A program made the position numbers and the translations under genes. Shown piece by piece: positions 25,854 through 30,710 of a stretch of DNA of 64,000 bases. The first letter of the stretch is position 1. Every line of letters starts with the position of its first letter. The notes below the pieces were generated by a model. It worked only from the letters and a program-made list of their open reading frames with translations, ran no database searches and was not told the origin of the DNA. Origin of the DNA: Polystyrenella longa. Its GTDB lineage: Bacteria > Planctomycetota > Planctomycetia > Planctomycetales > Planctomycetaceae. Location: NCBI RefSeq assembly GCF_007750395.1, contig NZ_CP036281.1:2627001-2691000 (forward strand). The letters run 5' to 3'.

Positions 25854-27986
25854 ATGAAACTGCCCAAAAAAGCTCGTTCTGCCTCCGCTTTGTTCACACT
25901 CGTGATCTGTTTTGCCGGTTTCGTCTTTCTGGCGAACAGTTTTGCCCCGGCGGAATCGGTTGAGGAATCAACGACGAAGTTGGTTTGTGAACTGCTCGCA
26001 GAACATCACATCAGCCATCCTGTTATTGGCGACGAAGTGTCGGCCAAAGTTTTCCATGAATTCATTGATGGACTCGATTCGCAGAAACAATATTTCTACA
26101 AAAGTGACATCGACGAACTAAAGAAACAGGAACTCAAACTGGACGACTACCTCAAAGGGGGGGACGTGAAGTTCGCGTTTGATGCGTTCAATTTGTACAA
26201 AGAACGTGTTAAAGAGCGGGTTGATGTGGCTATGGTTCTGATAAATGAGAATCACGATTTCACTGTTGATGAGTTCCTGATCACTGATGGTGATGAACTC
26301 GAATGGGCAACATCAAAGGCAGAACTCAATGAACGCTGGCGGAAACGGATCAAGTTTGACATCCTCAATTTGAAACTCGCCAACGAGAAAAACGAAAAAA
26401 GCAACGAAACCGAAGCAGACGAAGAAAAGAAAAAACCTGTTTACGATCCAGTGGAACGATTAACTAAACGATACGAACGTCTCTATTCCAACTTGGCACA
26501 AACGCAGGATTTCGAAGTCTTCGAAATGTATATCGGAGCATTGACTCATTCACTCGATCCACATACCAGCTATATGTCACCGCAGACACTGGAAGACTTC
26601 CAGATTCAGATGAGCCTGAAGTTAACTGGTATCGGTGCTTCACTCCGATCTGAAGATGGTTTGACTGTAATCCACCGGATTATTCCGGGTGGGGCCGCCG
26701 ATAAAGATGGCCGTCTCGAAGCAGGTGATGTCATTGTGAGAGTCGGACAGGAAGGCCAGGCCGAGGATCAGTTTGAAGACATTCGCGAAATGAAGCTAAG
26801 CCGTGTGGTTCGCTTTATTCGTGGGCCAGCCGATACCGAAGTCCAACTGGAAGTTCAGAAAGGCAAAACGGACGACATTGTGCATTACACACTCGTTCGA
26901 AAAGAAGTCGAACTGAAAGAGGACGCCGTTCAGGGTGAAATTATCGATCTCGAAACGCGTGTCGAGAATGGAAAAGGTCGCGTCGGTGTGATCAAAATTC
27001 CTTCTTTCTATCACGACTTCAGTCGGAATGACAATAATGATGTTAATGTTCGCAGCACTGCCCGCGACGTCTTGCAGGTTCTGATTGATTTCCAGGAAGA
27101 GACCCAGAAAAGTGGTAAGGAACTGGATGGAATCATTATCGACCTGCGTGACAACGGTGGTGGAGCTCTGTCTGAAGCGATTGACGTTTCCGGTCTCTTC
27201 ATTGAAGACGGCCCCGTCGTTCAGGTGAAAAGTAAAGAAGGCCGCGTCTCTGTGCAGTCTGATGACAACAATGCGGTTGCCTATCGCGGTCCTCTGGTGG
27301 TGGTCTGTAACCGACTGTCCGCTTCCGCTTCTGAAATCTTTGCAGGCGTGATCAAAGACTACAAACGAGGTATCATCGTCGGTGATGAAACCACTCATGG
27401 TAAAGGAACTGTCCAGCACGTGATGCCGGTGCAGAAATCGACTTTCGGATTCCCTGTCGGCAAACCGAATGGGGCACTGAAACTGACTATCAACCAGTTC
27501 TACCGGGTGAATGGTGAGAGCACTCAGAACCGGGGTGTTGAATCGGATGTCACATTGCCTTCGATTCTTGATCACGGTGAACTGGGCGAAAAGTATCTCG
27601 ACAATGCGTTGGCGTTCGATGAGATTGAAGTTGCCGAACACGATAACTTCGGACTCGTTCTGCCGGACATTGTCACGATGCTGCAGAAACGGTCAGCTCA
27701 GCGGATCAGCCAGAACGATGGGTTTAACAAAGATTTGCGACAAATCGCCCGTTACGAAGAACGTAAGAATCGCAAGAAAGTCACCTTGAACGAAGCCGCC
27801 CTGCGAAAAGATCGCCAGGAAGATCTTGAAGAGGAAAGCCTCGAAGAGAAAATCGTGAAAGCGGCTCAGGACGATGAAAATGGTCCCCTGTTCCCGGATG
27901 AGCATTACAACAATGAAGTCCTGAACATCTCGACGGACTACATCAATGTATTGCGATCCAAAGCGAAACAAACTGTTTCCAAATAA
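25854..27986 (+). CDS. prc: carboxy-terminal (tail-specific) protease, Prc type
   Basis: 710 residues. The N-terminal signal/anchor (VICFAGFVFLANSFA) is at residues 16-35. A helical N-domain follows, then a PDZ domain (about 255-345, LKLTGIGASLRSEDGL), and the S41 protease domain with the Ser-Lys pair: serine in SASASEIFAGVIKDY and lysine in GDETTHGKGTVQH. A C-terminal extension of about 110 residues resembles the Prc-specific domain. It degrades or trims exported proteins in the periplasm, often proteins with nonpolar tails and cell-wall hydrolases. The middle contains a Lys/Glu-rich loop (about 178-200). The downstream ABC gene starts 51 bp later, with a hairpin in between. Confidence 0.92.
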   Translation: MKLPKKARSASALFTLVICFAGFVFLANSFAPAESVEESTTKLVCELLAEHHISHPVIGDEVSAKVFHEFIDGLDSQKQYFYKSDIDELKKQELKLDDYLKGGDVKFAFDAFNLYKERVKERVDVAMVLINENHDFTVDEFLITDGDELEWATSKAELNERWRKRIKFDILNLKLANEKNEKSNETEADEEKKKPVYDPVERLTKRYERLYSNLAQTQDFEVFEMYIGALTHSLDPHTSYMSPQTLEDFQIQMSLKLTGIGASLRSEDGLTVIHRIIPGGAADKDGRLEAGDVIVRVGQEGQAEDQFEDIREMKLSRVVRFIRGPADTEVQLEVQKGKTDDIVHYTLVRKEVELKEDAVQGEIIDLETRVENGKGRVGVIKIPSFYHDFSRNDNNDVNVRSTARDVLQVLIDFQEETQKSGKELDGIIIDLRDNGGGALSEAIDVSGLFIEDGPVVQVKSKEGRVSVQSDDNNAVAYRGPLVVVCNRLSASASEIFAGVIKDYKRGIIVGDETTHGKGTVQHVMPVQKSTFGFPVGKPNGALKLTINQFYRVNGESTQNRGVESDVTLPSILDHGELGEKYLDNALAFDEIEVAEHDNFGLVLPDIVTMLQKRSAQRISQNDGFNKDLRQIARYEERKNRKKVTLNEAALRKDRQEDLEEESLEEKIVKAAQDDENGPLFPDEHYNNEVLNISTDYINVLRSKAKQTVSK

Positions 27987-28014
27987 TCCCCTCACAGGGA
28001 AGCAAGACTCGACC

Positions 28015-28052
28015 AGCAGGCATGAGCCCTCTATGATATGCTCATGCCTGCT
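28015..28052. repeat. perfect 12-bp inverted repeat over the ABC start codon
   Basis: AGCAGGCATGAG (28015-28026) is the exact reverse complement of CTCATGCCTGCT (28041-28052), with a 14-nt loop that carries ATG 28038; the second in-frame ATG (28044) lies in the right arm. No T-run follows. In RNA this would hide the start region of the ABC ATPase. As DNA it could be an operator. Confidence 0.8.
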
Positions 28053-29063
28053 ATCGAAGTAAATAATCTGTCGAAGACTTACCGCGTCTACCGTAAGCGT
28101 GAGGGGCTGATGGCCTCCATTACGGGGTTGTTTCATCGTGAATATTCCGAAGTTCACGCAGTTGAAAAAGTCGGTTTCCAGATCGAAAAAGGAGAGATGG
28201 TCGCGTTTCTCGGACCAAATGGTGCCGGAAAAACGACGACGCTCAAATTACTCTCCGGCCTGATTTTTCCTACATCGGGCGATGCGAAAGTTCTGGGGTA
28301 TACACCCTGGGAACGCCATAACGACTATCGCCGTCGATTTTCGCTCGTAATGGGGCAGAAAAATCAGCTCTGGTGGGATTTGCCCGCTCAGGAATCATTC
28401 CGACTGCACAAAGAAATTTATCGAATCGATAATAAGACGTTCGATAATCGCGTCGAAGAATTGACTGAGTTGCTGGAAGTCAAAAAACTGGTTGGCCAGC
28501 CAGTCCGTGAATTGTCGCTCGGGGAACGGATGCGGATGGAACTGATTGCCGCCCTGCTCCATGGCCCGGAAGTACTGCTGCTGGATGAACCGACGATCGG
28601 ACTTGATGTCGTGTCCCAGCGACGCGTGCAGGAATTCCTCCGGTATTACCAGCAGGAACGCAAAATAACTGTCGTCCTGACCAGCCATTACATGAAGGAT
28701 GTCGAGGCTCTGTGTAGCCGAGCGATCATCATCAACGGCGGAAAAGTCAAACATGATGGTCCACTGGTGGAGATTCTGGATCGCTTCAGCAAATATAAGA
28801 TCATCGATCTGCTCTTCGCCGGGACAGAAATTCCTGCGGGTCTGGAACGCTACGGTACTATTCAGGAATCAACTCCTCCCAGGGTGAAGCTACAGGTCCC
28901 TCGGAACAAGATTCCAGAGATCCTCACCAATTTATTGTCTCAATACACAATTGAAGATGTCGGTGTACAGGAACGGCCGCTCGAAGAAGTGATCGCGGAA
29001 TTGTTCACGAGTGATCGAGATTCTGATGAACCGTCGGTTCTACCGGAAGAATCCCCTGTTTGA
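28038..29063 (+). CDS. ABC transporter ATP-binding protein (ABC-2 export type)
   Basis: 341 residues from ATG 28038, with ATG 28044 as the alternative two codons later; both are inside the inverted repeat. All ATPase motifs are present: Walker [12 protein letters not shown]-loop [12 protein letters not shown], signature [11 protein letters not shown], Walker [13 protein letters not shown] and H-switch LTSHYM. The QLWWDLP element after the Q-loop is typical of the ATPases paired with DUF990-type permeases. A 90-residue C-terminal domain follows. It pairs with the permease at 29152-30003 in an export system of unknown substrate. Confidence 0.92.
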
Positions 29064-29151: not shown

Positions 29152-30003
29152 ATGTCGATTGCGGCCCGTTCGCGAACTATCGGAACCATTTTGCGAATCT
29201 GTATTGAGGAACGCCTCGTATACCGAGGTGATTTTGCCTTCGCAACATTACTCCGCTTTTTCCCCATTATCACTCAGATATTTTTGTGGGGGGCGATTTA
29301 TGGGGTCTGGTCCGGTTCTAGCCAGAAAACGGAACTCAACGGATACACGTTCCCCAATATGGTGGCGTATTATCTGTTCGCCATGTTGGGTCGAGCCTTT
29401 TCAAGCATGCCGGGGTTAGCGACAGGTATCTCTCGAGATGTGCGCGACGGCACGATCAAAAAGTATCTGACGCAACCCATCGATATGCTGGGGTATCTTT
29501 TCTGGCATCGTGTGGCTCACAAGATCGTGTATTACGTCATGGCAACGGGGCCATTTCTGCTTGTTTTCTTTCTCTGTAGAGCCTACCTGCCCGGTTGGCC
29601 GGATGGCTTTACGATCTGCGCCTGGATTCTTTCGCTAATGATGGCTTTCATGGTCGGATTTCTGATCGAAGCACTGATCGGCATGATTTCCTTCTGGTTT
29701 CTGGAAGTCAGCTCGCTTTTGTTCATCTATATGATGTTCAACTTCTTTCTCTCCGGTCACATGATTCCTCTCGACTGGATCCCTGATCCGTGGGGGACCT
29801 GGATGAAGATGTTACCGCTTAAGTATCTCGCGTACTTTCCCGCGTCGATCATGCTGACTGATCCGTCGGGTGCTCCCAAATATACGCATGCGGAATTAAT
29901 CAACGAACTTTCCATTGAAGCTATGTGGATTTTCATTCTGCTAGTCCTCAACCGAATTGCCTATCACCGGGGGACGCGACGCTACGGAGCCTTCGGGGGA
30001 TAA
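29152..30003 (+). CDS. ABC-2 type permease
   Basis: 283 residues with six hydrophobic segments. The start [21 protein letters not shown], the loop [19 protein letters not shown] and the central [13 protein letters not shown] are typical of the uncharacterised ABC-2 family paired with the upstream ATPase. It lies 88 bp downstream of the ATPase gene. Related systems often have two permease genes in tandem; here the next gene is kptA, so either this protein works as a homodimer or the second subunit is encoded elsewhere. The ribosome-binding site is weak. Confidence 0.87.
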
Positions 30004-30128: not shown

Positions 30129-30710
30129 ATGGACGCGAAAGAACCTCTATTAGAAAAACGAGAGCGGGTCGGTGTCAGCAAAACGATGTCGCACGCATTG
30201 CGGCACGAACCCTGGCTCTATGAATTGGAATTGGATGAGGAAGGTTGGACGCCTGTCTTACAACTCCTGACGACGCTGCAGGAGACACGACACGAATGGC
30301 AACATCTCACGATCACTCATATTGAACAGATCGTGGATTCCTCTGACAAAAAGCGGTTTGAGATCGAAGATGGAAAAATCCGAGCGCACTACGGACATTC
30401 ACTGGCTCAAGTTATTCGCAAACAACCCGCTGTTCCGCCGGAATTGCTATTTCACGGTACCAGCCCCGAGACAGTCTCGCTAATTGCAGAAGCAGGTCTG
30501 TTACCAATGGCACGGCAATACGTGCATTGCTCCGCCGATCGCGAAACGGCAACACTTGTAGGCAAACGAAAAGCCGCGTGTCCCGTTATTCTGGAAATTG
30601 ATGCGGGGCGAGCTGATCAGGCGGGAGTGCCCTTTTATCTGGGGAACGAATTGATCTGGCTGGCCGATCAGGTGCCGCCAGAATATATCCGCTTTCCCAT
30701 TGAGAAGTGA
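30129..30710 (+). CDS. kptA: RNA 2'-phosphotransferase, Tpt1/KptA family
   Basis: 193 residues, usual for the family. Motifs are SKTMSHALRHEP (the catalytic Arg-His pair), RFEIEDGKIRAHYGHS, LLFHGTS, and MARQYVHCSAD. KptA moves the 2'-phosphate of a spliced tRNA-type RNA to NAD, yielding ADP-ribose 1'',2''-cyclic phosphate. In fungi this finishes tRNA splicing; bacteria lack that pathway, so the natural substrate is unknown, with ADP-ribosylation of RNA ends suggested in some studies. GAGAGG about 8 nt upstream sets the start. It follows the ABC permease by 125 bp, with no functional link visible. Confidence 0.93.
   Translation: MDAKEPLLEKRERVGVSKTMSHALRHEPWLYELELDEEGWTPVLQLLTTLQETRHEWQHLTITHIEQIVDSSDKKRFEIEDGKIRAHYGHSLAQVIRKQPAVPPELLFHGTSPETVSLIAEAGLLPMARQYVHCSADRETATLVGKRKAACPVILEIDAGRADQAGVPFYLGNELIWLADQVPPEYIRFPIEK

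Follow-up and report, generated by a model that had tools for sequence, protein, structure and literature searches.

A conserved leaderless-type promoter enclosed by an inverted repeat found only within the genus, at an ABC exporter ATPase gene of Polystyrenella longa

We describe here a perfect inverted repeat at the 5' end of an ABC exporter ATPase gene in the planctomycete Polystyrenella longa. Judged by sequence comparison, the repeat is confined to the genus, and the leaderless-type promoter that it encloses is conserved more widely. The DNA analysed is a single stretch of 64,000 nucleotides (the window; contig NZ_CP036281.1, positions 2,627,001 to 2,691,000 of the forward strand), and coordinates below are those of the window. 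As to the function of the repeat, we lean, tentatively, toward a fold-back mechanism acting on RNA that enters from the upstream gene.

Sequences compared

The ATPase orthologs come from two sources, whole genomes within the family and class and one scan of named genomes, nearly all of them labelled planctomycetes. No relative in that scan exceeds 77%, and its output may omit records very close to the window's genome. In the family 151 genomes matched, and loci were drawn from the best 30 places, from 60 more places and from earlier ortholog searches. Dropping two loci with too little upstream DNA and merging exact duplicates reduced 206 loci to 160, of which all but three have an ATG in the range searched, leaving 157. 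The counts of upstream proteases and T-runs, permeases, -35 columns and third codon positions are based on an earlier set of 109 distinct loci instead of the 160. Species of one genus were counted separately, and the counts are not independent events. The genome sample, 464 kb in all, consists of 20 stretches of 20 kb plus the window.

Results

The start codon and the neighbouring genes

The junction comprises the following features.

25854-27986, + strand: tail-specific protease gene (S41/PDZ/TSP_NTD), upstream, the source of any read-through RNA
28009-28014, + strand: -35-like hexamer TCGACC, from a consensus scan, with matching columns in same-family loci
28015-28027, + strand: left arm, 13/13 complementary to the right arm, taking up 13 of the 17 bp of promoter spacer, from its 5' end
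28028-28039, + strand: repeat loop, containing the -10 hexamer and the beginning of a non-conserved first ATG (28038)
28032-28037, + strand: -10 hexamer TATGAT, 6 nt 5' of the ATG at 28044, a box conserved in relatives
28040-28052, + strand: right arm, spanning the predicted +1, the start codon and the following two codons
28044-29063, + strand: ABC exporter ATPase gene, 339 aa, Pfam PF00005, start by alignment in relatives, mRNA predicted to be leaderless
29152-30003, + strand: ABC-2 permease gene (ABC2_membrane_6), likely partner of the ATPase

The first-pass annotation had offered two ATGs as equal candidates for the start of the ATPase, one beginning in the loop (28038) and one in the right arm (28044), with a tail-specific protease 51 bp upstream. 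The positions are right: the protease stop ends at 27986, and from there it is 51 nt to the first ATG and 57 nt to the second. The equality did not survive comparison: the first ATG reads AGG in congener G001, and an ATG stands at the position of 28044 in 134/160 distinct orthologous loci, window included. Together, these observations support a single start, the second ATG at 28044, within the right arm. A Shine-Dalgarno sequence is absent, the bases preceding 28044 being CCTCTATGATATGCTC.

The protein is nameable no further than an ABC-2 type exporter ATPase; among the NCBIfam matches listed (25 of 187), none reaches its cut-off. A permease match lies no more than 700 nt downstream of the ATPase in at least 67 of 109 loci, a set that includes some truncated ones. 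ABC-2 type systems often have two permeases. In the window a single ABC-2 permease gene (29152-30003) comes after the ATPase gene; the gene listed next on that strand, directly 3' of the permease at 30129-30710, encodes a Tpt1/KptA RNA 2'-phosphotransferase (PF01885).

A leaderless-type promoter kept in relatives

The first-pass annotation was silent on a conserved promoter whose -10 box sits in the loop. At the locus its layout is TCGACC-17-TATGAT-6-ATG, and a consensus scan of 27700-28300 returns this one promoter; shuffled sequences give 0.4, so the scan alone proves little and the promoter rests on the comparison with relatives. A TAnnnT box stands 5-10 nt 5' of the ATG in 114 of the 157 loci with a start, mostly at 6-7 nt: there are 54 matches at 6 nt, 39 at 7, 12 at 8 and 7 at 9, and any other spacing within 0-39 nt has 0-5 matches. 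The remaining 43/157 loci have no such box at 5-10 nt, which counts against a leaderless promoter. Within the same family the box is present in 34/68 loci, and the -35 columns of these 34 show T at 82% and G at 88%, with TCGAC at spacer 17 in 11/34. More distant loci, those under 66% identity (for example L036, L037 and many of L091-L125), carry a box close to TATAAT 6-10 nt before the ATG in 30 of 41 cases, and the short-leader design of the ATPase gene therefore reaches beyond its own family.

Control genes behave differently. By the control method, orthologs of dxs have the box in 1/25 loci (30 given, five without a usable start) and orthologs of the permease in 0/30, against 19 locus-spacer matches in 30 loci for the ATPase. 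Among 272 ORFs of the window's own genome the box occurs three times at 6 nt and eight times at 7 nt; widespread leaderless promoters were not seen in these ORFs, for which first-ATG calls are rough. Sites of the form TCGAC-n-TAnnAT-n-ATG number 11, against one for the reversed control, and of the six on the + strand only L151, besides the ATPase, opens a long ORF (242 aa).

A -10 box 6-7 nt before the start and conserved in relatives is the hallmark looked for in leaderless genes. With such spacing, transcription should begin at the AUG or no more than a few bases away. The ATPase mRNA is thus probably leaderless, with a 5' end near 28044 as judged from the spacing. A comparative study whose tables include a single planctomycete species counts Planctomycetes as one of the phyla that show signals of leaderless mRNA and/or ribosomal protein S1 (PMC5397173); searches of an open-access library listed no transcription-start map of a planctomycete. 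What emerges is a leaderless-type promoter of one transporter gene, kept across many planctomycete genera and rare among the ORFs sampled in its own genome, which makes leaderless initiation testable at one defined locus.

Geometry and rarity of the repeat

The repeat occupies 28015-28052 exactly as first annotated, and its arms pair perfectly; the arms and loop, given then as 12 bp and 14 nt, are in fact 13 bp (100% complementary) and 12 nt. The RNA of 27990-28080 folds at -33.1 kcal/mol, with a z of -4.85 against 200 shuffles. In the 464-kb sample there are 13 perfect inverted repeats with arms of at least 13 and loops of 3-20, this one included, and two first-order Markov copies of the sample have no arms of at least 13. 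Since strong repeats are so few and the Markov copies gave none, plain chance is unlikely at 28015-28052. The last of the 20 sampled stretches holds a further case, at L145:14073-14134, a 22-bp perfect inverted repeat with an 18-nt loop and without a T-run. An Rfam covariance-model search of 27500-28600 found no match at E <= 1.

Terminator-like A-run/T-run ends are found on 8/13 of the strong repeats. As the first-pass annotation observed, no T-run follows the repeat at 28015-28052, so that it lacks the form of an intrinsic terminator, a G+C-rich stem and then a T-run, and a terminator scan finds none that uses the stem on either strand. There is no T-run between protease and ATPase in either the window species or congener G001. 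Among the 22 other loci with the protease upstream, 12 have a T-run of terminator type 52-86 nt past the protease stop; in the other 10 the repeat is absent and the T-run pattern finds no match, and the repeat is therefore no general substitute for a terminator. Protease synteny was considered as the reason for the repeat and rejected: of the 95 loci whose upstream DNA extends to 900 nt or more, just 24 have the protease there, and the repeat is missing from 22 of them.

Conservation within the genus

Only two of the 160 distinct loci carry the repeat, the window (13/13 pairs) and congener G001 (12/13 pairs, in register). In the other 158 loci it is absent, the best pairing being at most 10/13, about what shuffled DNA gives. 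L194, the next closest relative, with 83% identity across the part that is present, shows the -10 box but no repeat. In the 65% complete assembly of congener G002, neither the ATPase nor the protease has an ortholog. Conservation of the arms, which the first-pass annotation had made a touchstone, thus fails outside the genus and holds in one congener. There, the outermost pair has changed on both sides, from A-T to G-C, one pair of the G001 stem is lost (A.A), and U.G and U-A pairs are gained further in.

The two genomes are otherwise well diverged, with third codon positions 49.5% identical over 200 codons (G000, the window's own genome, against G001). Against this background 11/13 left-arm bases are kept (P 0.010 at the neutral 49.5%, 0.058 at 0.6), as are, in a count by eye, 16 of the 19 arm positions on which coding places no constraint (P 0.002 at 49.5%, 0.023 at 0.6 and 0.13 at 0.7). 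Of the loop positions outside the -10 box, also counted by eye, 2/6 are kept. Some of the arm bases may be kept as promoter sequence.

Masking of the start codon

The gene's own mRNA, beginning near 28044, would lack the left arm and so could not form the hairpin, and masking would apply only to read-through RNA, since only RNA from upstream holds both arms. The first-pass annotation had proposed that the repeat masks initiation in mRNA unless opened; computed folding bears this out for RNA with both arms and not for the gene's own mRNA, which probably starts without the left one. In read-through RNA, opening the region from -15 to +15 costs 23.3 kcal/mol at the locus and 28.3 in congener G001, the two highest opening costs of 134 orthologous loci, and the corresponding z-scores of 5.3 and 6.9 are the top two of 127 loci that have them. 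Among 439 candidate starts in 464 kb, the two ATPase ATGs (28038, 28044) rank 1 and 2. On computed folding, then, the start is hidden in a stable stem of upstream-initiated RNA, as in genes of the T4 gene e type. In the predicted leaderless RNA, opening the first 15 nt would take only 2.1 kcal/mol at the locus and 0.6 in congener G001; in the window's minimum-energy fold of the first 60 nt the AUG is paired, weakly, which counts against the fold-back mechanism.

A general rule, by which starts would be masked wherever the upstream gene is close and a T-run is missing, was tried and rejected: the difference is not significant against loci with no close upstream gene (p = 0.27 without Polystyrenella), nor against all other loci with this genus included (p = 0.11). 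In one further relative, L021, the protease is again upstream and the T-run pattern finds no match. Over the 90 nt that precede its ATPase start, the start region is strongly paired in read-through RNA, with an opening cost of 23.0 and a z of 3.27, without a repeat of the 28015-28052 type.

Discussion

Overall, we believe that the most likely function of the repeat is that of a fold-back silencer, with a DNA operator next. In this proposal, which we hold tentatively, the element would be a genus-specific silencer of read-through RNA around a leaderless promoter, working like that of T4 gene e. RNA polymerase would use TCGACC-17-TATGAT, starting at or beside A28044, and the gene's own mRNA would open with AUG, without the left arm, and be translated. 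Read-through RNA from the protease gene would carry both arms, and its 13-bp stem would bury the AUG; with the AUG buried and no Shine-Dalgarno sequence, this RNA would remain untranslated. Expression of the transporter would then depend on its own promoter only. The repeat, the promoter, the start codon and conservation in the genus are each supported at the sequence level, and it is the 5' end of the transcript, the existence of read-through RNA and the translation block that we infer. A bolder form of the proposal, in which a chromosomal, non-phage fold-back insulator replaces a terminator so that only leaderless, never read-through, transporter mRNA is translatable, is more doubtful still. 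Against the fold-back silencer stand its presence in two species only and the fact that a symmetrical 13-bp element in DNA is just as compatible with an operator.

A dimeric operator, suggested in the first-pass annotation, is on balance unlikely, and it is the strongest of the alternatives. A repressor would bind both arms as DNA, cover the spacer, the -10 box and the start, and shut the leaderless promoter. The symmetrical half-sites do lie over the promoter, with a dyad centre at 28033.5, within the -10 box, and conservation of the arms with a symmetrical A-T to G-C change fits an operator; the T to A change in the congener's left arm, however, breaks the symmetry. The half-sites, with 25 bp from one to the next and 12 bp of gap, are widely spaced, and this counts against an operator. 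So do the genome searches. The second copy that the first-pass annotation had raised did not materialize: the exact pattern occurs once in the 6.1-Mb genome, and paired arms with up to three mismatches give one site each in the window's genome and congener G001 and none in congener G002, at its 65% completeness. Single arms with up to one mismatch have only two further sites, against 15 for a reversed control pattern. A regulator with a single target would still be compatible with these counts. In addition, Pfam finds no DNA-binding domain or regulator among the four neighbouring proteins scanned. A precedent can be found in leaderless acuR of Rhodobacter, which has an inverted-repeat operator over its promoter (PMC3017554).

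Improbable, in our estimate, is a functionless product of chance or template switching, kept in two species by descent and promoter constraint. Two species are few, and the near-shuffled pairing in 158/160 loci fits this explanation; 12/13 pairs in register at 49.5% third-position identity, and the Markov copies of the 464 kb without an arm of at least 13, speak against it. Least probable is a 3'-end hairpin of the protease mRNA that blocks exonucleases or aids termination and that the ATPase promoter merely overlaps: the stem does end 66 nt after the protease stop, near where 12/22 other protease-upstream loci have their T-run, but it has no T-run of its own where 8/13 strong repeats have A/T-run ends, the terminator scan is negative on both strands, and the placement of the arms on promoter spacer and start codon is left unexplained.

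Regardless of which function applies, the arrangement has relatives among known systems. According to the published account, the acuR operon of Rhodobacter sphaeroides is leaderless, the repeat TAATAGAC-n6-GTCTATTA overlaps its promoter, and the operon is repressed by AcuR, the product of its first gene (PMC3017554). The likeness lies in an inverted repeat that extends over the promoter of a leaderless or leaderless-type gene, and the difference in the regulator, the operon's first gene in acuR and not seen among the four neighbours scanned here. In the fold-back inhibition of the IS10 and IS50 transposases, an internal promoter is flanked by inverted repeats that give protection against transcription from outside; unlike these, the gene here is no transposase.

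The closest known systems are the start-masking hairpins of phage T4 gene e (lysozyme), soc and I-TevI. For gene e and I-TevI, two reports describe long transcripts from upstream whose folding conceals the start region, and a late promoter just upstream that yields translated mRNA without the 5' strand of the hairpin (PMC3014915, PMC2988022). None of the titles listed in a literature search announces the combination of a leaderless gene with a start-masking hairpin in read-through RNA. The upstream-initiated RNA of gene e hides the start as it would here, where the conserved promoter and spacing would have the gene's own RNA begin past the 5' arm. By the same reports, T4 masks a ribosome-binding site, whereas the start here is predicted to be leaderless, and T4 late promoters need a phage sigma factor, whereas the promoter here looks sigma-70 type. 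Also unlike T4, the gene here is a chromosomal transporter ATPase. If the fold-back proposal is true, a trick of phage T4 is used by a chromosomal gene, separating two adjacent transcription units without a terminator.
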